Source of the DNA: Beverwykella pulmonaria
Taxonomy: Eukaryota > Ascomycota > Dothideomycetes > Pleosporales > Melanommataceae
NCBI GenBank assembly: GCA_001599595.1
Contig: BCHH01000002.1
Span: forward strand, 2,617,451-2,681,450
DNA: 64,000 nt
Direction of reading: 5' to 3'
The position numbers and the translations under genes are program-made. Shown here one piece after another: positions 13,818 through 64,000 of the stretch. Numbering within the stretch: position 1 is the first letter of the stretch; each line of letters opens with the position of its first letter. The notes under the pieces are model-generated. The model was not told the DNA's origin. It saw nothing but the letters and a program-made list of their open reading frames with translations, and did not search any database.

Positions 13818-16800
13818 CTACACTTCTGGTTCCCCTGGTTCCTCTGGCTCCTCCGGCCTCTCTTCGTCGTCATCGCCCCCCTCGTCGTCATCCTCCTTGA
13901 CCAGCACATTCCCCTCCACCTCGTCCTCATCCTCCCCCGCACTCATTTTCACATCCTCATTAACCACCGTCAATACCCCACCACCCTGCCTAAGAGCCTC
14001 CACCTTCGCCTTCGTCATCTCAAACACATACTTCCCCAAATGCTCCACGCCCTCCATCACGGCCTCCCCCTCCGCCTTCTCTTTCACCGTCCTCTTACAC
14101 TCTCCATACATTTCGCCGGTAACTAATGTTAGCACATCCGGTTTCTTAAGTAAAATGTCAAACGCAGGCTTCAATTCAAAGCACGCCTCGAAGACGGAGC
14201 GGCGGCCGAGGATGTACAATCCTAGGCGCGCGCGGGAAAGTGCGACGGTGAGGCGACGGATTGAGCGGAGGTACCCGATGGAGCGGGTGCGGACGAGAGA
14301 GAGGATGATATCTGATTTCACGTTAGCCAGTACTCAAATATTGAGAAGGATGGAGGGGGGAATGGGGACGTACAGTCGTTCTGCTCTCCCTGGTACTTAT
14401 CTACCGTCGCGACAATCCTGGGTAGACCAAAGAGTCTGTTGTTCTTGCATCGATGGCCGAGAACGTCCTTGATCAGCGCGCGTTGTCCGGCGTACGTGGT
14501 TAGAATAGAGATCTTCTCCGCTGGATACCCAAGGAGGCGCATGTACATGAATATTGCAACCGCATACTCAGCTTCACCTAGATTTTGAAGGAAGTGCGGT
14601 GTCGGTTCCATTTCGCCTTTGCCTTTATAGTCGGGGACATCGATAAATTGATATTCGTGCGCGAAGCCGGCGTTCGCGGTCAGGAATTCAGGGTTAGTGG
14701 AGACAGATGGCAGGTTGTCGAGACGTGGGTACCGCCATTTGTACAGCTCTGCTATCGACGAGCGTGCCCGACCTTGCTGGTCGAGCATTATCGTCGGCAC
14801 ACCCAGCCGTACCAGTCTTAGGAAAAGGGATTGCTCGAGGTTCGCATATTGCCTGAACGCGAGGTTCTGGATAACAGGCGAATTCTGCAAGTGATCGCCA
14901 ACGAGGACGATGCGTTGGAGGGGGAGTTCTCCGTTCTGTGGATTTTGCAAAGCGAGGGGGATGAAGTTTTCGATTTCGGTGATTTGGGCCGCTTCTTCCA
15001 TGATCACATTGTCGTAGTGGAAGCCTAGAGATGCGATCTCTTGTCGCCGCATCGCGGCGTGTGTGGAGGTCATGGCTATGATGCGGGCTTCCTTCACGAG
15101 GAGATAGTTTGCCTTGTCCCGCGGATTGCGCAGGATCTCAAAGGGGCGGATGTCCTCGAGCTCGGCGAAGATCTTCTTAACATGGTGATAGCAGCCTTGC
15201 ACGATGTCTAGAATCTCCTCGCGGGAAGAAGTATGAGGAAACAGAGGTTGAGGTGCGTTGGAGAAGTACTGTTTGAAAGGAAATTGGGTGATTATTTGTT
15301 CGACATTCAAATCCTGGCTTTGGATGCTCTCCCAGTATTGCGTCCACGCCGGCTTCACATAGACAAGATTGAAGTAATCTGCTGTCTCGCACGTACTACC
15401 ATGAGACCCGGGGGCACCAAAATTCTTCGCTAGGCGGTCAACCTCAGCCAGGTAGTACGCTCCTCTCTCCAGGAAAGACTCTACACGGCCATGCTTACTG
15501 TAGCTCGCTTCAGTCTCGAGCTCCTCCTCACCGTGGCCCAAGCGCAGGAGGTGGCGTTCATCAATGTCGAGCGCCACAATTTTTTGGAAGAGCTGGTTGA
15601 GCGCCTGATTGCTGTGTGCAACTAGCAGTGTCCGCTGGTCCGGGAAGTCGTGGTATATATTGGATATAATTTGGGTTGCAACGTCCGTCTTACCGGTACC
15701 CGGCGGCCCGACCACAACAGTGAGGCCTGGCTGAGTCCCCGATGTTATCGCTTCGATTTGAGCAGGGGTGAATCGGACCCTGTTCAGCTTGGGTGCGTCT
15801 GCAGGGTAGGGCCCCGTGTTAGGAGGCTTGTATGTCGAGACATGCAGAGACTCATGCACAGGTTGTGCAACCTCGACTTGATCACGACGCCGCTTCTTCG
15901 ATGCTCGCACTGGAGCCGAGTCTGGTGTAGCTGCGGGGAAGTCGAGGATGTATGGAGGCCCAAAGGATGATTGTGCATCTTCGTGGGGTTCGATGGATTT
16001 GCCGGGCAAGGATTCGATCAGGTGTTGCCAGTCTAAAAAGGTATCGCGAAAGTCTATCGAATGCAGGCGGTTCGATAGTCGCTTGTAGGTCGCTGAGGCA
16101 GGATCACCATAACCAAGGAATACTTCCTGAAGCCAGGATGGCGCGGGTATGTCTGAGAGCGTAAGGCGGCGGATAGAATCCAGGATGGGCTGGAAGTTGT
16201 TCTCGCGTCCTCGTCGACGTACGATCAGGTTGATATGCTCGTAAATGTCGGGCCTGCCTAGGGCAACATGGTCCATGTCTTCCTTGTATTGCTTCGCATC
16301 CACATTGAGGAGAAGTCTTCGTTGCCGGGCTCGAGGTGGTGCTCCCTCTGTGTGAGCCTGCTCACGAAGAGGGCGCCCATTGTCGTCCAGCATCTGGACG
16401 ACCTCTGCACACCTGAGCTTATGCAAACTTGACTGTTCTTTCTGCTCATTATCATGCCCGTTCCGCATGGGTACGTCGTCTTGACCTTCTACAGCGAGCA
16501 AGAACACAACGTCGCCGGGCCTCAGCTGTTCCCACTCCCGCCGTACGGGGAACTGAAGGCGGCTGACGTCTAAAATTACCTCGGCACGGACATGAGCTGG
16601 ATGCTCCTCGCCCACATTTGACGGAGCCACGTCTACGATGGCAGGCTTGGAGATGGGTATCGACATCTTCGAGAAGCCACCAAACTTGGTGTTGATGCCC
16701 TTCCCGCGTGGCTGAACACGCTTGACGACATCCTCCATATCCTTACGGATGCCGTAGAATGATTCGGCCCTATACAATATGAACGATCTCCACAAAAAGT

Positions 16801-18292
16801 CGCCCATGGTGAGGTACTGAAGGTTCAATTTCGGTATCGCGAGCGGCTTCGATCCGTCGTAGGACTCGTTCCTGAGGAATGTTGATTCGTACAAGACCTG
16901 TTCTGTTGGGAGGATGGGCATATCACGGATTGCGTCCTTGAAGGTAGGTCTCTGTTCGACTGCGGCAACCAAAGCCTCTGTGAAGAAAACTCTGTCCTGC
17001 ACTAGGAACGATGATTGTGGGTACTCCGTTCGTATATCCAGGAGAGAGCAAAGGTGTATGAGCTCAGAGTCGTCCAGTACGTGAAGGTGCCCTTCTAACT
17101 CGTCCCTATTGCCGATGCTACCATAATTTGCGAGCGCCAGCAGCTGAAGCTTCTCCTGAAAGGCCGCATAACCAGTTCTCTGCAGCTTAGCCAAAGCTGC
17201 ATAGTGTTCTTGATCATACTCCAATTTCGATAATTGCTTGCCCGTCTGGTCCTCGATTGGGAAGTAAGTGAAGTGGCTCAGAAGGTTGAAAAGATCCCGG
17301 AAAAGGCCATTGTCCTCATCCGTGTACATGGGAGATAGCCTGATCGCGGGAAGCATGTTGAGATCGCGTAGTAGCGAGTTTACATATCTCCTCGTCGGCA
17401 GTTGGCTCTGCAGATCTGTGAGGAGCTCGATGAAGCGCTCGCAATATGACAAGTTGTCCCTTGTCTCCTCTCTCGTCTTGCTGTTGTAGAGGCGGTCTAG
17501 AAAGTCTAGGAGCAATGCGTAGAGCCATGAGCGCTCAAACCGCAGCCTGACTTGTAGCGCCTCATCCCCAGCATCGAAACGCTTCGACGCCGCGCGCCAT
17601 GCCTTCCGTAGCATCGGGGTCTTCTCGAAGAGCTGATCGCGGACAGCGTCCGAGTGTAGGTTCTGCCATATCGATATTGCAACCAGCGGCGCGCACTCCT
17701 TTCGCACCAGGCCGCTATCGAGAGACTGAAATGCGCCAATGACAAAGGATATAAGCTGTGTCCGTATTTTGATGGGTTGAGATGGGTCCACGGCCATGGA
17801 CAGTATCCGGCGGAAAAAGTCCGAGAATTCGGCAGGCTTTTCAGCGAACAGTTCTGCAGCTCAACGTTAGCATTTTCCCCCAATACAATCGAACAGCTGT
17901 TGCGGCTCCTTACCCCATGAAGGCAGATTCTCCCTCCGTTTGACATTGACCATGAGCGCCAGCAGCAGGTGATGGTAGTTGGATGCATCCTCGGTGAATC
18001 CAGGCCACAGATATCGCTCCAGCAGCTGCAGGTTCTCCAGTACGAGCAGCGACGAGTAGGCAAAGTCGACCCCTTCTAGCATGTCCCAAAGCTCTTTCTT
18101 CACCACCTCAGCGCGGACTTTGGGCGGCGTTTTCACCGTCAGCCAGTTCTTGCGCGCCACCTGCGCGAAATGGTTTTCGCCATGGAGGTCGGCGACGGTA
18201 GGCCGGGCGTGCAGGATCGAGGAGTTGGACGACTGCGCTGTGGTTGCACCGTTGTGCACGCTCTCGGGCCCGTTCTGCTTTATATCCTCCAT
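13818..18292 (-). CDS. cwf11: Aquarius / Cwf11 intron-binding spliceosomal helicase
   Basis: SF1 (Upf1-like) RNA helicase of the intron-binding complex, which contacts the intron upstream of the branch point. Exons: 17914-18292, 14374-17859, 13818-14311; 1452 residues. The N-terminal half is the Aquarius armadillo-like scaffold. Helicase motifs follow: [14 protein letters not shown] (Walker A), VIMEEAAQITE (motif II), VGDHLQNSPV (motif III), VDKYQGEQND (motif V) and VALSRARLGLYI (motif VI). The tail is strongly acidic (E/D/P-rich). The first intron has two in-frame acceptors 6 nt apart (exon start 17859 or 17853), a possible NAGNAG-like choice. It is divergent from the complex I gene, with 231 bp between start codons. 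Confidence 0.94.
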
Positions 18293-49700: not shown

Positions 49701-50204
49701 GTGCGATTTAGCACCATAGTGCACATGGCGATGCTCTTATTGCAGTCTCATGTTATTAATACAAAGTGACCCCCTTATGATTCGCAGAGATGACTAAATT
49801 GCCTCGGCCAATCAATGTAAGACCGTTAGTGCAGGCCCATTGGGCGGTCTCCGTTCCTAAAGACATCTGAGCCTAACGATTCATGACAACCTGGATGAAC
49901 CAAACTCTAAATCCATTTACCTAACAGGCAACGCATGTAGCGACTATTTTTTACTCACGAAACTCCGAATACGAAGAGTGGTTTTTGAATTACACTAAAC
50001 TAATAATAATCTAAAAGCGTGGCAAACTAGTGCAAACTCAATCCAAGTCGCTTTGAGTCAGAAGGATAGCCAGGCCAGGCAAAACCGTATAAGATACAAC
50101 AAATCTCCATTTCCCAAGATTGACATAACACTTTTTTGATTGACATCCCTACTTACTTAGAGTATCAGATTAAATCTTCTTTTACATCATCCACCTTTAT
50201 CAAT
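46770..50204. other. gene-poor 3.4-kb stretch upstream of the one-codon-exon gene
   Basis: No supported gene or RNA. The DNA becomes A+T-rich towards the right. The last 100 bp before 50205 should hold the promoter and leader of the next gene. A segment near 49895-49925 resembles one near 44130-44160 (shared ATGAACCAAA and ATTTACCTA), possibly an old dispersed repeat. Confidence 0.4.
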
Positions 50205-53089
50205 ATGAGATTCTTAATGCTCTTTGGCATGCTTATGCCCTCTCTGGTTTTTGCACTCCCAAGTCCTTACGAACTAGGAGGCGATCAAGTAGAGGGGCTC
50301 GAGACGCGAGACGTAAGATAAAAAAGACTTTTCCCACCTGATACTGTAAAATTGCTAACTGTTGGCCATGGTGCAGAGAGTAAGTAGTTACTTAATTCTT
50401 TCTTAACAGGCTAATCGTTCCAGTTGCTAACTGCTAATTTTGGTGCAGGATGCAAGTAGATCCTTAGTTCTCGTTTAATAGACTGATTGGGCAAGCTGCT
50501 AACTTCTGGTCGTGGTATAGCAAGTAAGTAGATATAGTATCCTCGCTTGATAACCTGATTAGACATCCTGCTAACTGCTGATCGTGATGTAGTGTGTAAG
50601 AAGCTCTTGTACCCAAGTTCAAAAAGCTAGTTAGGCAAGTTTCTAATTACTAATCGTGATACAGAACGTAAGTACATGCAGTATTCTTACTTGAAAGACC
50701 AGTTAGGCAAGTTTCTAATTACTAATCGTGATACAGAACGTAAGTACATACAGTATTCTTACTTGAAAGACCAATTAGACAAGTCGCTAATTGTTGGTCA
50801 AGCTGCAACAAGTAAGTAGATCCTGTATCTTTGCTTGACAGGCTGAGTAGACAAGGTACTAACTGCCGATGGTGGTACAGGTCGTAAGTAGATCATATAC
50901 CTTTGCTTGGTAGACTGATTAAACGAATTGCTAACTACTGGTTGTGGTGCAGGGAGTAGGTAGATCCTGTATCCTTGCTTGACAGAATGAGTAAACAAGT
51001 TGCTAACTGCTGATTGCGGTGCAGGAGGTAAGTAGATCATATACCCTTGCTTGGTAACCTGATTAGACAAATTGCTAACCATTGGTTGTGGTGCAGGACG
51101 TAAGTTGATTCTGTATTCTTTTTTGACAGACTAATTTAACAAGCTGCTAACTACTGGTCGTGGTATAGTGTGTAAGTAGATCTTGTACTCTAGTTTTATT
51201 AAACGAATTGCTAACATAGCGTATTATAGACTGTAAGTGCATCTAGTATCTTTGCTTAGCAGGCTAATCATACAAGTTGCTAACTACTGGTTGTGGTATA
51301 GAGAGTAAGTAGATATAGCATGGATATTTAAAAAACTGATTATAAAAGCTGCTAACTACTGGTTATAATATAGACTGTAGGTGAATCTAACATCCTTGTC
51401 TATTAGACGAATTGGACAATTTGCTAACTGAAAGCTATGGTATAGGCTGTAAGCGGGTTTTATATCTTCGATATACTAATTCTATACATTGCTAACTATT
51501 AATAAAATAGCAAGTAAGTGGATTCTATATCCTTATTTACAAAATCGATTAGAAAAGCTACTAACTACTGATTGTGATTTAGTGTGTAAGTAATTGTAGT
51601 ATCTTTATTTAATAAACTAGTTAGATAAGTTACTAACTAATAGTCGTGGTATAGTGTGTAGGTAGATCTAGTATCCCTGTTTAACAGACTAATTAGACAA
51701 ATTGTTAATTGTTGATTATGATGTAGAGAGTAAGCAGATTCTATAATTTTATTTAACAAGCTGGTTCAACAAGATTCCTTTTACTAATTATAGAATATAA
51801 TAGGGAGTAAGTAGATATTTTTCTTTTCTGTATTAGACTGATTAAACAAGCTACTAATTACTAGTTATTGCATAGTATGTAGGTAGATTCTGTATCCTTG
51901 TTTAACAGGGTAATTTAACAAATTACTAACTACGACTTATGGATTAGTGTGTAAGTAGAAATAATACTCTTTCTTAACAAGTAAACTGCTAACTATTGAT
52001 CGTGGTACAGAGGGTAGGTAAATCCTGTACCCTTGTTTAATAGACTAACTAGACAAGCTGCTAACTACTAGTTATGGCATAGGGAGTACGTAGATCCTGT
52101 ATCCTTGTTTAGTAAACTAATTAGTAGACAAGTTGCTAACTACTAGTTATGGTATAGAGAGTAAGTACATTCTGTATCCTTATTTGACAGACTGAATAGA
52201 CGAGGTACTAACTGCCAATTGTGTTACAGAACGTAAGCAGATTATGTATCCTTGCTTGGTAGACTAATCAGACAAATTGTTAACTACCGGTTGTCGTACA
52301 GGGAGTAAGTAGATTCCATGCCCTTGCTTGACAGGCTGATTATTCAAGCCGCGAACTAATGGTCGTGTTACAGCCGGTCAGTAGATTCTGTATCCTTAAC
52401 AGATTAATTAAACAAGTTACTAACTGCCGCTCGTGGTACAGCGCGTAAGTGGATCTAGCGCCCTTGCTTGGTAGACTGATTGAACAAATTGCTGATTACT
52501 AGTTATGGTGCAGGGAGTAAGTAGATCCTGTATCTTTGCTTGATAGGATGAGTAGACAAGTTACTAACTGCTGATTGTAATACAGAGCGTAAGTAGATTA
52601 TATATCCTTGCTTGCTAGACTGATTAGAAAAATTTCTAACTACTGGTTGTGATGTAGGGAGTAAGTAGATTCTGTATCCTTGATTGATACACTAAGTAAA
52701 ACAAGTTGCTAACTGTTGGTATAATGTAGATAGTAAGTAGATGCAGTATTTTACCTTATCAGGTTGATTAAGCAAGTTGCTAACTACTAGCCATAATGCA
52801 GTGCGTAAGTAGATACTGTATTCCTATTTTACAGATTGATTAAGTATTTTGCTAATTGTTGATCGTGGCGTAGGTTGTAAGTAGATTCTGTATTCTTGAT
52901 TGATAGACTATGTAGGTAAATTGCTAATTGCTGGTCGTGGTACAGGTAGTAAGTGGATACCGTGTCCTTGCTTGACAGACTGATTAGGTTACTAACTGCC
53001 GCTCGTGGTGCAGCGTGTAAGTGGATCTAGCACCCTTGCTTAACATGCTAGGGATTTCACAAGATTGCTGCTAACTGAGAATGTAGTAA
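50205..53089 (+). CDS. secreted six-cysteine peptide encoded by 38 mini-exons of one codon each
   Basis: Exon 1 (50205-50312) encodes 36 residues: a signal peptide (MRFLMLFGMLMPSLVFA, likely cleaved after VFA) and a short acidic propeptide. Then come 38 mini-exons, each 3 nt except one of 9 nt, starting at 50377, 50449, 50521, 50593, 50665, 50737, 50803 (9 nt), 50881, 50953, 51025, 51097, 51169, 51230, 51302, 51374, 51446, 51511, 51583, 51655, 51727, 51804, 51876, 51948, 52011, 52083, 52158, 52230, 52302, 52374, 52442, 52514, 52586, 52658, 52730, 52802, 52874, 52946 and 53014. The terminal exon opens with TAA (53087-53089). Total 76 residues, every intron phase 0, no premature stop. Cysteine codons are at 50593, 51169, 51583, 51655, 51948 and 52802, spaced C-x9-C-x5-CC-x3-C-x11-C, like an inhibitor cystine knot. 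Seen: signals, triplets, stop. Inferred: that all exons are joined, and the fold. Role (effector, antimicrobial, signal) unknown. Confidence 0.8.
50313..53086 (+). repeat. tandem array of 39 related spliceosomal introns (72-nt period)
   Basis: Each unit starts GTAAGTAGAT-like, has TATCCTTGCTTGACAG-like sequence near the middle, a branch site TGCTAACT and ends TGGT-[AG]CAG or TATAG. 29 of 39 units are exactly 69 nt; the rest are 58-74 nt (63 for the seventh), yet the spacer between units stays 3 nt. One donor is GC (50452); others vary as GTAGGT, GTAAGC, GTACGT and GTCAGT. The seventh unit has lost its normal AG acceptor. Intron 1 (50313-50376) is the most divergent. The array looks like repeated tandem duplication of one intron plus one codon. 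Confidence 0.92.
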
Positions 53090-55224
53090 TTGGAAAGGAG
53101 AAGGCTATTGTAGAGAAGGATTACGAAAGTTCCATCCGTTGTATGGAGTTCCCTAAAGGGTTTCAGCTCAGGCCGGATGGAACGGGTTCCTGTCACTGCC
53201 ATAAGCTAAATTGAAAAGCCTTAACATTAATTTCTTAAAACACGCTTGCTGTGATTTCTACTTTCTTGCATATTCAATATATTGCTACACTAACCCCCTG
53301 GTCTTGACCTCAACCAAGGCGAGATCCGGACCAGAGCAACCCATTCAAGAAGTTGCGAACATATATTTTCTCCATCTGAATTGCACGAATTCAGAAGACT
53401 CTGAACGGAACAAGTGGACACTTGATGTAAAGACGTTTAGAACCCTTTCAAAGCCTGAGAAGTGTTTAAAACTGTGCTTCAAGTGTAGGTAGGGCCCTTA
53501 AAAGGAGAGCAATACAGGAGCCATAGTTAAAAATATGCAATATCTAGTGAGATAGGTTACGTTCTGGAAAGTTTTTAGTATAGCAGTCTTTCTCGCGACC
53601 ACTTATTTCTAAGGAGCCTGGACAGTCCTCCCATTACATAAATAAGAATTCATCATTAACCAACAGCGCGATTTATAACAGCTCTGCTGATGATGATTCT
53701 GACTCGAAGTTAATATAGCTTGTCAGCTGTTCACCACCATGCGCAACCAGCAATAGGGTAATAAAAGTTGTAAGTGGCTTGAAAAGGCCTATTTGAGGAC
53801 CTGATAAACAACCAAGCACAAAAGCTTACGCCACGAGCGGCACAGGCTGAGGATACTTGCGATAGGTTACGGAGAAGGGACTAATGTGGGCTTTGATCTC
53901 AAGAAGGTAATTTTCATATCAATTGCTAGCAACAGCGGAGATGAACGGAAAATGCAAGTATTCAGCTCCCGTGCCGTGCAGACGGCAAGCAGATATTATA
54001 GCCGCTCAACAGCGGTAATTCCATTGAACTCGATAGATCTGTATCCTGCTTCTGCTGCTGAAGATTGTCTAGTTTGCTTATTTCCCCTTCGAGCAGCCGT
54101 GGAAGATGTTGTGCGCATAGGGTGTTTGGGTTTGCTTAGTGCGCAGGGATGTGCTTCGAAGGTTGTCGCTCTACTTGTGAGCTGAAGAGGAAGCGAAGGG
54201 GAAGCGGCCCACGCGCTACGGTGACGCTGGCCCGATCCACCTGTATGGGGCGCCGCTGCCATCAGCTATCAGAGTCTACACCCTCAGCAGCACACGTGAT
54301 GTAACTGCCAAGAACGCGATGCTGGCAATGTGGCGGCTGCGCGTGAGCAACATTATCACCTTTCCATCGTGCAACCTCGTTTACGTCCTCACCCTAACGT
54401 TGCCAGCTGCACAACCAGCTTAGACCATGAGCACCACGCTATCAAATCTGCATGGTGCACACGCATGTCAAAGCTAGCGGGCGTATCTTCTGGTCCAGCG
54501 AGTCGGCATCTGAATCTCCTCACGATGCCCAGTAAGAGTGCCACAACTAGAAATCTGAAGCCTTACATCGACGAGGTCTAGACAGTTTTGGAAAATGAAG
54601 AACAAAGCACGGGGCAAGAATGAAAACATGGCCCAGGGGCGGTGATGTGGCCCAGAACCTCGCCCTTCTCGAGTAGCAGCTGTTGGGCGTCCTGCTCCAC
54701 CACAGGTAAAATGCCGATGTATGTCGTTGTGTGATCTCTTGCCCAAGCTAGCTCCAGTCTCTCGTCTATATCTTTTCTAGCCTGGGCTTATAATTCTCCA
54801 TCACAGTCTCCGTCACAGTCTCCTTATTCTTACTCGATGCCGAAACCTTCGAATCCGCCACCTTCCCCCACCAGCACTTTCCAAACCTGCGCCACCCCAT
54901 CATCAATCAACGGCCAAAAATCGCAATAATCAGTGCAACCCATAACCAAATCAAGCAACCACGATTCATTCCATAAACAGTCTCTTCCCCATCACATTCC
55001 TCCCATACATTGACAATGACCAAATAAGCACCTGCCCAAAGAACGTGAACTCAATCAACTCAGTGAGCTCAGGTAGCTTAATTGGTGTAGTCTAAGATTA
55101 GCACTCTCAGTTAACCTTCTTTATCCTATTTATAGATAACTGTAGTACTTTAACGTAGATATATTCTAGTCGTAATACCCCTTAAATTAGGGGTACGCCA
55201 CCCTAAATTAGCGGGATGCAAAGT
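53090..55224. other. intergenic region with 3' hairpin
   Basis: No supported gene. It includes the 3' UTR of the mini-exon gene with a 10-bp inverted repeat (53129-53138 with 53174-53183). Near 55175-55245 CCTAAATT motifs recur on the border of a decayed transporter gene. Confidence 0.4.
53129..53183. repeat. 10-bp inverted repeat, potential hairpin
   Basis: GTTCCATCCG and its exact complement CGGATGGAAC are separated by 35 nt, 40 nt after the TAA of the mini-exon gene. Possibly a 3' UTR structure. Confidence 0.6.
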
Positions 55225-58284: not shown

Positions 58285-60030
58285 TTATTCCTCAATAATT
58301 GACTCCTCTTCTGTGGGGCTTGGAGCCGTGATTACCTTTGATTTTCCCTTGTATTTAGAGTTTTTTGGATGCAGCTTTGAGGGCTTTTTGGCCAGCTTAT
58401 GGGGTTGTTTCTGATCTATACTTTGAAGCTTGAGCTCTTTTGCAATTGATCGAGTCCGTTTCCTTTCCCCAAGCATGTGAGCCTTCTCCTGCTTCTCCTT
58501 CTCTCGGTGTGTTTGTCCATCCTTCTGGAGCTGTGGTTCCTTCTCTTCAGCATCCTTTTGCTCCTGTACTTCGTTTGGGGGACAGAGGATCGCACCCCCA
58601 TCGTATTGAGTAGGCGATTTAAGTAGAGGGTCCTTGCCACGCTGTCGCTTCTTCTTCTCGTTGAATAGGGCTTCTTTGAGGCGATTGTTTTCAGTTTCTA
58701 GGAGTATATTACGCGCTGAAATCAAGTGCATCGTTTCACTCAGCTGCTTCGAGCGTTGATCATGAACATCAGTAACAACCTCGTGTAGAAGTCGTTCAAT
58801 CTTCCTCCAATCACCTGCTGAGAGAACTGAGCTTGTACCCTTACTTGAAGAAGGCCAATCCTTCTGTGGTTCATTAGATCGAGCCAGTGCTTTCTGTGGG
58901 TCCCAAGGGTGGAGCCCACACTTGTTAAAGGCTAAGAGTATATTTTTGGAAGTAAAGGTAGCTCCCCAGGCTGTATCGAACAGGCGGAAGAAGTCTCTTT
59001 TGGTTACACTTGAGGGGCCTTGGAATTTATCGAGATGATCATTGAGGGCGGCTGAGTACGCAGTCGATAGGGGCTTAAACATGCATACATTTAGAGGAAG
59101 CAAAATTTGAGTCGAATGAAAGGGAAAGATGGCCAGGAGGATCTTGTTGTCGTCACAATATGTGATAAAATCCATGGTTACATGCGATCCATGGCCGTCG
59201 AGAATTAGAAGTCGATAGGATCCTTGTGCCTTTGTCTTTGTTTCCCGATCAAACACCTGCTCAAGCCATCTTTTGCCGACATCGTTGTTCGTCCATCCAC
59301 CAGGTGATGAGGCCAAAAACGCCTTGTGCATAGCAGGATCAAAGTCTTGCAACCAGGAGTCCTGAATTTTTCCGCTGACAGCTTGATATATCAGCGCAGG
59401 TGGGAGAGACGTCCCATCAGCGCAAATACACGCGATTGTTGTTATCCACTCGTGATTGCCGTCCTGTATCATCTGCTTGATGCCCTCTTCTTCATATAGC
59501 TCTCGGGAAAATATGCGCTCCATCTTTGATAGTATCCCAACCAATAAGCCCTTCTCATCCATGTTGTATATTTGCCGTGGATCAACGTTGTATTGATCAA
59601 TTTTGCGTTTTAGGAGCTCAAAACATGGCGAGTATTTGAAAGCAGAATCACTCTTTTTGGGCTGGCTATCTATGCCGGATGCCCACTGAGATGGAAGGTC
59701 AATGTCATGGCGCTTGATGAAGCGGTCAACCCACGATTTGCCTGCCTGTCTCCCAGCTATATCGGACGCGAAATTTCGTATCATTTCTCGTGTAGGGGAT
59801 AGTCCTCTTTTGGTAAGACTGTCAATATATAGTAGGAGCTCTTCGGTTTGCGTGTTGTTGAGCAGTCGTGAATTTTCGAGTTTCTGTTCCATCGAGCCTT
59901 GCACACCCCGCCAACGCCTCGACAATGTTGAACGATTGCACCCATATTTATCAGCCACCTGGGTTATATTGATTGGACTTCCTGGTTTCAGGGTTCTCAG
60001 AGCTTCAAGCGCGTCGTCAATTGGAGCCAT
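58285..60030 (-). mobile_element. second pogo/Fot-type transposase, intact frame
   Basis: 581-residue transposase with N-terminal HTH (ITQVADKYGCNRSTLSRRWRG), a CENP-B-type second DNA-binding segment and a DDE domain: YNMDEKG (first Asp) and LILDGHGSH (second Asp) are present, but the third Asp of the usual QPLDV motif is Asn (LLPLNVCMF). The C-terminus is Lys/Glu-rich and coiled. No terminal inverted repeats could be recognised in the flanks. The frame has no stop codons, so it is either young, under selection or possibly domesticated. It is clearly a different lineage from the element at 39456-41388. Confidence 0.85.
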
Positions 60031-60373
60031 ATTGATCGAGTTATCGATTGTTGGATATTTGATGAGAATCGGTTCGAGTGTGCGTCAGGTGAGGCTGTGC
60101 GCTAAGGGATAAAACACTGTAATTGGGGGGGGGAGGGCTGCAGACTTCAAGCTGATCATCCGAAGTCAAATTTTACATGGAGGGTAGATACTTAGAGTCA
60201 AACTTGAGATGCCATTGATGGCTATTGATGGCGAAGATGATGAAGCACACTCAAAATCGGATCGCGGTTGAATTTCCGAGATGATGAACGCTAACCCTTC
60301 TGAGATTGGCTGATTTCTCCCTACCCCAAAGCAGCCGTCTCCAACGCAATTGACCAGCCCAATCTTCCTCAAA

Positions 60374-62516: not shown

Positions 62517-64000
62517 TCAAAGCTCCTTCTTCCCCTCGGGGCTCCTCTCAAGATCTGCTTTCTCGATCAGGCTCCTGCCAACTGCGACAGTCTCCCTCCA
62601 GCCCTTCTGTCTGCCCCAGAACCTATCTTCGGGCGTGCTGGTCTTCAAGCTTGATCTCCGAGCGTCCTCCTCAAGGCTCTCCCGCGTGATATCTTCGCCT
62701 GCCTCAGCCATCTTAGGAATCCTTCCCAACTGACTGAGGTTCTCCTCGAAGTACCGCTTGCGCACTAGGAAGCGCTCGCGATGCTCCTTCTGCAAGCCTG
62801 GAGAATCGAGCCTGGAGATGGCGACGCGGATTCCCCATCGTAAGACGAAGAATGCGTGCTCGGCGAAGAGAACGGTAAGCAAGAGTGCCCAGCCCTTGAT
62901 GCTGGCGGGATGGCCGCCAGGACCCATTCCATCATTGGAGAACATGTAGACTAGCGCGCTCGTCGTCAGACTTCCCAACCACGTCAAGAAGCTCAGCGAG
63001 TCAAGCCAAGGGCCAATGGTATCTGCACGCCAGGGGATCGGTCGCTGCATCTCAACACAAATCTTGACTGCATCGGCGCGAAGCTCGATCCAGTCATTGA
63101 TAATGAAGGACACAGCGGTGAGCGGCCAGACGACGGAGAAGAGCGAGAGGTATCCAAACTGTATGACCATTTCGCGGAGATCGCTGGTTACGTCGTATAC
63201 TCCCAACTCAGCCTCTTGTCTCACACGTTCCAAGAATGTAGCGTCTTCTGGTGCGTCTGTCTCAGCCTCTTCTCTCACACGTCCCAAGAATGCAGCGTCT
63301 TTTGGTGCGTCTGTCGCAGCCTCTTGTCTCACATGTCCCAAGAATGCAGCGTCTTCTGGTGCGTGTGTCTTAGCGGGTGACGGAGGCACATTGCCATTCT
63401 TCGCAGCACGGTCCGATTGCATTTGTTTATACTTGAGCTGACCACGGCGTTTCAAGTAGGGGACGACGAGCTCCATTCCAAGATTGACAATCTGTGCAGT
63501 GACCGTGAAGTAGATGACTTGTTTTCGCAGCCTGTCTGGATTGATCGTGAATCCGGCTTTCGGAGCTTTCATTTGTTTATCGTCCTCAGCGAAGGGCTTC
63601 ACGGTAAGGCTGAAGACGTCTAGGTGTGGCACGATTATAGTGCCAAAGGGAACGTAGACAAACGCTGTGAGGAAAATGGGCAGGTACGAGGTGATAAAGT
63701 TCAAGACGAAGACCTTCTGCGTGAGGGCAATCTCGTAGGCTCTGTGGGTCTCGTAGTTCTCATACTCTGTAAGGCGAGTTGCGAAGTTCATGAGAATACT
63801 TGAAAGAATAGGCATGACGGTCGTAGCGATTCCGGTAGGGAGGAACACCTGGATGAGGTCAGTAAGAGGGGCTGAAAAGCTAGCAGCTCGCATCTTACCA
63901 AAGCACCCTTGAAAGGGCCATTGTAGACTTCAGAAATGAAGACTTCGATTCCGAAGCATGTCGCAATCAATGCGCCCAACAACGTCGCAGCGGCAAGCGC
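62517..64000 (-). CDS. ist2: Ist2-like TMEM16/anoctamin protein (5' partial)
   Basis: Cortical ER membrane protein that tethers ER to plasma membrane; TMEM16 fold. Exons seen: 63899 to the window edge, and 62517-63848; the 5' part lies outside. About 477 residues are visible, with several hydrophobic spans (for example FVLNFITSYLPIFLTAFVYV and LSLFSVVWPLTAVSFIINDW) and the anoctamin-typical YLSLFSVVWPL. A polar loop before this segment carries a three-copy 18-residue repeat. The C-terminal tail is polar with basic residues, but shorter than the yeast Ist2 cortical-sorting tail. Confidence 0.85.
63209..63370 (-). repeat. 54-bp coding minisatellite, three copies
   Basis: Three imperfect 54-nt copies encode 18-residue repeats of the type TDAPEDATFLERVRQEAE inside the Ist2-like protein. 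The copy nearest the conserved domain keeps the family-like VRQEAELGVYDV, so the others probably arose by duplication from it. Confidence 0.85.

Follow-up and report, generated by a model that had tools for sequence, protein, structure and literature searches.

The stretch of DNA analysed here, referred to as the window, comprises 64,000 nucleotides (nt) of a Beverwykella pulmonaria contig (BCHH01000002.1). It contains a gene at 50205-53089 in which, as predicted, almost every codon behind the first exon forms an exon of its own (Table 1). Gene models were obtained with a splice-site decoder for which a GT or GC donor and an AG acceptor are obligatory, 3-nt exons are favoured and other exons of 2-90 nt are penalised. 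The decoder yields 39 introns. All but one of the 38 internal exons measure 3 nt, the exception 9 nt, which bears out a preliminary description of 39 donor-branch-acceptor units separated by 3-nt spacers (once 9 nt). Coordinates and decoder likewise agree with that description in placing an ATG exon with a signal peptide before the array, in intron lengths of 58-74 nt and in a TAA that directly follows the final acceptor. The first exon encodes 36 amino acids (aa), including a hydrophobic signal sequence recognised by eye. Among the 39 introns, 29 measure exactly 69 nt, all donors are GT except one GC (50452), and every intron carries a CTRAY motif within its final 40 nt. The introns preceding microexons 5 and 6 are near-identical.

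The single 9-nt exon is in frame and arises through an AAG located 6 nt upstream of the expected acceptor (50806-50808), which reads CAA, not CAG. The affected unit may either use the upstream AAG or be skipped, the latter giving an intron at 50740-50880. The array-encoded part of the predicted peptide reads RDQCNN(LQQ)VGEDCTRTAQCCRGYCRGRNGPRGSGICVVR and contains six cysteines.

Table 1. Features of the array gene and its flanks (window coordinates)
Feature	Position	Strand	Remark
TATA-like box GTATAAG	50087..50093	+	~115 nt before ATG; upstream alignment, 7 genes
Exon 1: signal peptide, then short pro-region with RD at its end	50205..50312	+	signal peptide by eye
Array: 39 introns (58-74 nt), 38 microexons between	50313..53086	+	decoder
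Microexon 1 AGA (R)	50377..50379	+	
Microexon 2 GAT (D)	50449..50451	+	GC donor next
Microexon 3 CAA (Q)	50521..50523	+	
Microexon 4 TGT (Cys 1)	50593..50595	+	
Microexon 5 AAC (N)	50665..50667	+	
Microexon 6 AAC (N)	50737..50739	+	
Microexon 7, 9 nt (LQQ)	50803..50811	+	acceptor AAG 50800-50802; possibly skipped unit
Microexon 8 GTC (V)	50881..50883	+	
Microexon 9 GGA (G)	50953..50955	+	
Microexon 10 GAG (E)	51025..51027	+	
Microexon 11 GAC (D)	51097..51099	+	
Microexon 12 TGT (Cys 2)	51169..51171	+	
Microexon 13 ACT (T)	51230..51232	+	
Microexon 14 AGA (R)	51302..51304	+	
Microexon 15 ACT (T)	51374..51376	+	
Microexon 16 GCT (A)	51446..51448	+	
Microexon 17 CAA (Q)	51511..51513	+	
Microexon 18 TGT (Cys 3)	51583..51585	+	
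Microexon 19 TGT (Cys 4)	51655..51657	+	
Microexon 20 AGA (R)	51727..51729	+	
Microexon 21 GGA (G)	51804..51806	+	
Microexon 22 TAT (Y)	51876..51878	+	
Microexon 23 TGT (Cys 5)	51948..51950	+	
Microexon 24 AGG (R)	52011..52013	+	
Microexon 25 GGA (G)	52083..52085	+	
Microexon 26 AGA (R)	52158..52160	+	
Microexon 27 AAC (N)	52230..52232	+	
Microexon 28 GGA (G)	52302..52304	+	
Microexon 29 CCG (P)	52374..52376	+	
Microexon 30 CGC (R)	52442..52444	+	
Microexon 31 GGA (G)	52514..52516	+	
Microexon 32 AGC (S)	52586..52588	+	
Microexon 33 GGA (G)	52658..52660	+	
Microexon 34 ATA (I)	52730..52732	+	
Microexon 35 TGC (Cys 6)	52802..52804	+	
Microexon 36 GTT (V)	52874..52876	+	
Microexon 37 GTA (V)	52946..52948	+	
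Microexon 38 CGT (R)	53014..53016	+	
Stop TAA	53087..53089	+	first triplet past final acceptor
3' untranslated stretch common to family loci	53094..53204	+	83-88% identity, five BLAST matches besides itself

The window gene belongs to a family. When the 45.6-Mb assembly (31 contigs) was searched with the unit pattern donor-CTAAC-AG-NNN-donor, 300 matches were obtained, compared with one for a reversed control. Eight loci of a single family account for 294 of them, a figure that refers to tandem units, as the pattern demands a 3-nt exon and lone copies were not sought. The family consists of the window gene and six further decoded genes, plus a decayed eighth locus on C11. C1 has 84 introns and a glycine-rich peptide, C3a has 89 introns and the longest run of one-codon exons (88), C3b has 81 introns, and C15b has 56. 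C5 has 23 introns and 22 codons, six of them for cysteine, and C15a, split by a stretch of N and counted as two pieces, has 45 introns in one piece and 14 in the other. Taken together, the seven genes hold 431 introns and 423 internal exons (422 of 3 nt, one of 9 nt) with zero stops, and all introns of the decoded genes lie between codons (phase 0). The decayed member (C11:577000-578600, minus strand) retains a few units and the 3' untranslated region (3'UTR), no exon 1 having been seen there; its units are broken by inserted sequence that has, by eye, a tRNA-derived look.

The flanks of the arrays are shared as well. Exon 1 is homologous in all seven genes, six by alignment and that of C15a by search (which returned five of the seven). 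It ends in RD in the window gene and in RQ in the other family genes, with VL added after it in C15b. The TATA-like box of the window gene corresponds to TATATAA in the other six, and in six of the seven genes the array is directly followed by the stop codon. Downstream, all eight loci contain a conserved 3'UTR stretch with the core TTTCAGCTCAGGCCGGAT...AACGGGTTCCT, which shows a few changes in C5 and C11. Coding use of this stretch was ruled out by frame-breaking indels in the alignment. At the first junction after exon 1, C3a, C3b and C15a each have one zero-length exon (CAG directly before GTWAGY). It could be a recursive splice site or just reflect a single longer intron.

A further array gene lies outside the family. 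A looser unit pattern gave 57 matches, three of them outside the eight family loci (control, two), and two of these three led to C3c (C3:1860387-1858723, minus strand). C3c has a different signal exon of 29 aa, 21 introns of 60-80 nt and a TATATAA box 122 nt upstream of the ATG. The decoder, trained on the main family and applied to this unrelated gene, gives 20 internal exons, each of 3 nt and none a stop, followed by a final exon of 14 codons in frame and then a stop. The introns of C3c are 0.49-0.56 identical among themselves (ungapped) and 0.31 identical to family introns, compared with 0.25-0.27 for shuffled sequence. In Pfam, its product gave only DUF1505, below the cut-off (E 0.017). 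From these features, C3c is a predicted separate attainment of the one-codon-exon design, in which introns and leader both differ from those of the family. The remaining outside match falls in an array of yet another unit kind (C6:1021044-1021807, plus strand) with a few 3-nt spacers and no leader exon seen; it was not decodable as a gene and is either decayed or of another nature. Four further pattern searches, two of them without the branch motif, revealed no additional array cluster, with 63, 44, 37 and 42 matches, of which 1, 3, 0 and 0 lay outside known arrays (controls 5, 20, 0 and 0); such searches could overlook arrays with weaker donors. The arrays on C11 and C6 are excluded from every exon and intron count. 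With C3c included, the predicted genes total 452 introns and 443 internal exons; all but one of these exons (442) are exactly 3 nt long, and none holds a stop.

The lengths and splice sites of the units are conserved unevenly. The preliminary description had noted that the spacer keeps its length while the introns vary; across the genome this extends to the 442 of 443 internal exons just mentioned, set against family introns that depart from 69 nt in 121 of 431 cases. In the family, zero indels of exon length were seen where ~6 were expected (P = 0.002, a rough value that is softened by the decoder's preference for 3-nt exons). Column-conservation, motif and composition, and constraint and duplication statistics cover the seven family genes and leave C3c aside. 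In the window gene, agreement with the consensus is ~75% per column in the intron interior, 95% in donors and 100% in the AG, the decoder accepting GT/GC and AG only. Were the obligatory splice bases to vary like the interior (~25% off consensus), at most two changes in 156 bases would be expected with P = 5e-17. Among the 431 family introns, the donor is exactly GTAAGT in 390, the acceptor is CAG or TAG in 424 and CTRAY is present in 425. A chance pattern was rejected on the reversed control and on this constraint on the splice bases.

The arrays evidently grew, as their sequences suggest, through duplication of intron-plus-codon units. Five units of C1 (GGGRE) are repeated five units further on, with flanking introns 92-97% identical, and a gapped comparison places copied blocks in C15b at lags 3, 7 and 20, in C3b at lag 12 and in C3a at lags 11 and 14. 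Block duplications number eight with gaps allowed. The ungapped count, made on 69-nt introns only, keeps one (C3b, lag 12), partly because most introns of C15b and several of C1 have other lengths. No block of at least three copied units was found in the window gene. As the shuffled baseline of gapped intron identity lies near 0.70, intron divergence was recounted ungapped, on an intron core whose masked columns lie partly beside the branch site. In the block comparison, unit pairs were picked by intron likeness, and intron divergence is biased downward as a result.

Such growth raises the question of whether the array is a minisatellite that spread from one intron and is now an unexpressed or unspliced relic. 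The tandem 72-nt period, the decayed copy on C11 and the undecodable array on C6 would all suit a relic. The same holds for the TpA/ApT ratio, which is 1.3-1.8 in family arrays compared with 0.74 over the window's first 50 kb and may reflect mutation resembling repeat-induced point mutation, though it is confounded by the conserved intron motifs. A relic would nevertheless have to keep its obligatory splice bases in units whose interiors are ~25% off consensus. Moreover, seven copies retain exon 1, the promoter box and a gapless array (save the stretch of N in C15a), and the unrelated C3c does likewise. A relic is very unlikely on this evidence.

Other readings place the function in the introns or on the opposite strand. 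Mammalian tandem introns carry small nucleolar RNAs (PMC11608373), and the introns here could host repeated small RNAs as at the SNHG14 locus, the exons being incidental. The likeness of units across family genes (58-74% identical ungapped, compared with ~26% for shuffled units) would be in keeping with such hosts. However, no Rfam match up to E 1 was found in 50100-53300, and folding does not surpass that of shuffles in six introns of the window (z -0.74 to 0.58) or in a 69-nt stretch from the C1 array (z 1.41). Structured RNA hosted in the introns was rejected on the absence of Rfam matches and on this shuffle-like folding, and small-RNA hosting in general is exceedingly improbable. On the minus strand, where 72 nt would equal 24 codons, a tandem-repeat protein could be imagined from open stretches with a 24-aa period, for example 110 aa at 50798-51130. 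This is the longest such stretch of ~925 aa possible, and with no continuous frame open across the array the antisense protein was rejected, its probability being practically negligible. The broken antisense stretches of this period, which also occur opposite the C3 arrays, are a by-product of the 72-nt period.

Whether the triplets are codons can be approached through paralogues. C3b and C15a, which lie on different contigs, have 16 of 26 C-terminal residues in common without a gap; the next best of 55 offsets gives 6, and 20,000 shuffles give at most 12. When units of the two genes are aligned by their introns alone, 12 of 39 residues agree, compared with 4.1 +- 1.8 in shuffles. Of the 72 columns of a unit, those of the first and second triplet bases vary most (across 303 units that are free of N and have an intron of 69 nt and an exon of 3 nt), and random within-gene unit pairs differ at these bases in 67% and 62% of cases, compared with 30% in the intron core. 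This variability fits diversification without proving it. The triplets also have a composition of their own: the third base is T in 305 and G in 9 of 422 family triplets, unlike four ordinary open reading frames of the window, and K, Q and E codons are NAA in 26 of 27 cases and NAG in one, compared with 208 and 292 of 500 in those frames. Scarcity of NAG would avoid a false acceptor directly before a donor.

The triplets could instead be spacers within one long composite intron, removed recursively or in one piece, in which case the product would be the exon-1 peptide and the array would be regulatory. The YAG-NNN-GTAAGT junction indeed looks like a ratchet site, C3a, C3b and C15a have true zero-length exons at the first junction, and the triplets show no excess conservation. 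A pure ratchet, however, needs no 3-nt spacer, and spacers would leave unexplained an exon length fixed at 3 nt, the absence of stops from all 443 exons and the residues common to C3b and C15a. They would leave equally unexplained the gene-specific composition of the peptides, the cystine-knot-like spacing described below and the frame of C3c, which continues through 14 residues of the final exon. A composite intron is accordingly a very unlikely account of the array.

The cysteines of the window peptide are spaced 9-5-0-3-11 with the 9-nt exon and 6-5-0-3-11 (C-x6-C-x5-CC-x3-C-x11-C) if the CAA unit is skipped. The latter spacing is the canonical inhibitor cystine knot framework. Reading the window units at the triplets gives a loose cystine-knot pattern, also with the 9-nt exon, whereas none of 89 other offsets does. 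The window product is similar to knottin peptides in its six cysteines, while the canonical spacing appears only with the CAA unit skipped. To judge by its sequence, it is probably a pre-pro-peptide whose mature part is knottin-like and has six cysteines. To our knowledge, the structure of the window gene is unlike that of any known knottin gene.

The window gene is, with high probability, intact and codes for a small secreted peptide whose mature part would be encoded one codon per exon. Its anatomy is observed; its splicing and function are predicted. The reading of almost every codon as an exon, put forward in the preliminary description, is supported by the anatomy, the seven-gene family, C3c, the absence of stops, the codon order shared by C3b and C15a, and the cysteine spacing. 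Further genes of the kind, the knottin-like window product and the 9-nt exon as a possible skipped unit have been added to it.

Several results weigh against this reading. Of nine intron-aligned pairs of genes or pieces, only C3b/C15a has more residues in common than any of its shuffles; C3a/C3b (9 residues compared with 7.4 +- 2.4) and C3a/C15a (7 compared with 4.4 +- 2.0) lie within the shuffle range. Even between C3b and C15a, 18 of 78 triplet bases differ, as do 218 of 901 in the intron core (17 units with both introns of 69 nt), which leaves the codons no better conserved than the introns; 3 codons differ only synonymously and 10 by replacement, and purifying selection on these codons is not seen. 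Given the triplet composition, ~4 stops are expected in the family alone and none is seen (P = 0.018), which is only mildly surprising. Since G is rare at the third base overall, the avoidance of NAG is not specific. In C15b, the end of the gene was set by eye one codon further, the decoder having chosen a more distant acceptor that is followed, after seven codons, by a stop.

The points that weigh in the same direction for the knottin-like product concern spacing and homology. The canonical spacing fails when the 9-nt exon is included. Shuffles produce it in 1.8% of cases, and a stricter form, chosen afterwards, in 0.015%, the pattern itself having been spotted after the peptide was read. Pfam matches of the whole window peptide to UPF0506, Conotoxin and Dickkopf_N fall short of the respective cut-offs (E 0.021-0.024), and the mature part with the unit skipped gave only Conotoxin, also below its cut-off (E 0.07). 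A PDB search with the 40-aa mature form returned no match, and the skipped form returned Murinotoxin-1 (E 0.46). No homologues were found among ~5.8 billion proteins with the window product, the C3b product or unspliced exon-1 frames as queries, a negative that says little because gene finders would probably miss such genes.

Elsewhere in the window, a gene for Aquarius, an intron-binding spliceosomal helicase, lies on the minus strand at 14318-17860 (Pfam E 9e-122); its co-location with the array is probably a coincidence. About 5 kb downstream of the array gene, a 599-aa open frame (58285-60084, minus strand) contains the DDE_1 and HTH_Tnp_Tc5 domains of a Tc5/pogo-type transposase. A 54-bp tandem repeat at 63207-63374 (3.1 copies, 90% matches) falls within an anoctamin-like frame on the minus strand, and a Timeless/Tof1-like open reading frame is also present. 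Together with the transposase and the intron signals, this frame suggests a fungal genome.

A mechanism can be proposed for how one-codon exons would be joined. By intron definition, the spliceosome would pair each donor with an acceptor ~69 nt downstream. Introns would be removed in sequence, probably during transcription, and one by one because a 3-nt exon can hardly carry two spliceosomes at once. Every step would leave a near-perfect GUAAGU donor three bases past the growing exon end and so recreate a normal exon-donor junction, a ratchet resembling recursive splicing that would deposit one codon per step. The product would probably be secreted and trimmed near the conserved RQ or RD, and that of the window gene would probably fold as a disulfide-rich miniprotein. 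As every exon is one codon, the gain, loss or skipping of a unit would shift the peptide by whole residues and never shift the frame.

More tentatively, the exon-as-codon arrangement may be a working architecture that arose more than once in this genome, the spliceosome acting as an amino-acid-by-amino-acid assembler; we regard this as possible but somewhat doubtful. If true, it would constitute a categorically new way to encode and diversify protein. One gene could yield a family of in-frame secreted peptides by skipping or duplication of units, with loop lengths free to evolve, which would open a route to residue-by-residue peptide evolution without frameshift. If spliced as predicted, the genes would also be an extreme test of intron definition, with up to 89 decoded introns per transcript and internal exons of three bases. 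They would make testable the order in which neighbouring introns are removed without an exon to define them, as well as the tandem multiplication of introns. Such genes would probably escape ordinary gene finders and read mappers, and similar ones may sit unnoticed elsewhere.

That such a run lacks precedent, as initially claimed, held in searches of open-access literature, where no run of one-codon exons was found, subscription papers and bioRxiv lying mostly outside that scope. Micro-exon genes of schistosomes have small symmetrical exons, each several codons long. They resemble the genes described here in the dominance of such exons and differ in that the exons are longer than one codon, and we know of no run of 3-nt exons in them. 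These schistosome genes encode gland-expressed proteins (PMC5825161). Bicycle genes of aphids are putative effectors that diverge fast and have, on average, ~17 exons, which are small and share one common phase, and a megacycle gene holds more than 100 microexons over ~2000 aa (PMC9168663). As in the window family, many unusually small internal exons stand in one phase; bicycle exons, however, are far longer and in phase 2, whereas an exon here is a single phase-0 codon and the introns are copies of one another in tandem (PMC9168663). Phase-2 introns are absent from the present genes, all introns of which fall between codons.

Exons of comparable size are known singly. A 3-nt exon occurs in mouse Ncam (PMC8042270) and 1-nt exons occur in plants (PMC8831610). 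These cases show that exons of 1-3 nt can be spliced, but they are isolated there, whereas 20-88 stand in a row here. In filamentous fungi, a 20-nt microexon was reported from Trichoderma in 2024, functional microexons being stated there to have been undescribed earlier (PMC11121469). Introners are similar introns inserted in many unrelated genes; with a pattern that requires a 3-nt exon, 294 of 300 matches here fall in one family. A survey of introners uses neither the word microexon nor the word tandem in its main text (PMC9860276).

Closer parallels in mechanism are offered by stwintrons and recursive splicing. Stwintrons of ascomycetes are nested introns that are excised in succession by intron definition, as predicted for the present introns, and like these they occur as sequence-similar copies in one genome (PMC12403724). 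Stwintrons, however, share a donor and have no codon between them, whereas each intron here has its own donor and acceptor (PMC12403724); in the present genes, the donor, acceptor and branch point of an intron are never broken up by another intron nested within it. Recursive splicing is similar in that a donor is regenerated at the junction, but each step here would leave one codon behind (PMC6224609), and zero-length recursive sites (AG-GT within a longer intron) are absent from the window gene. In the broad sense of a microexon gene, one with many symmetrical internal exons of at most 30 nt, all 443 predicted internal exons qualify, being 3 or 9 nt long. We rate the one-codon-exon genes as extreme microexon genes that stand outside any named family.

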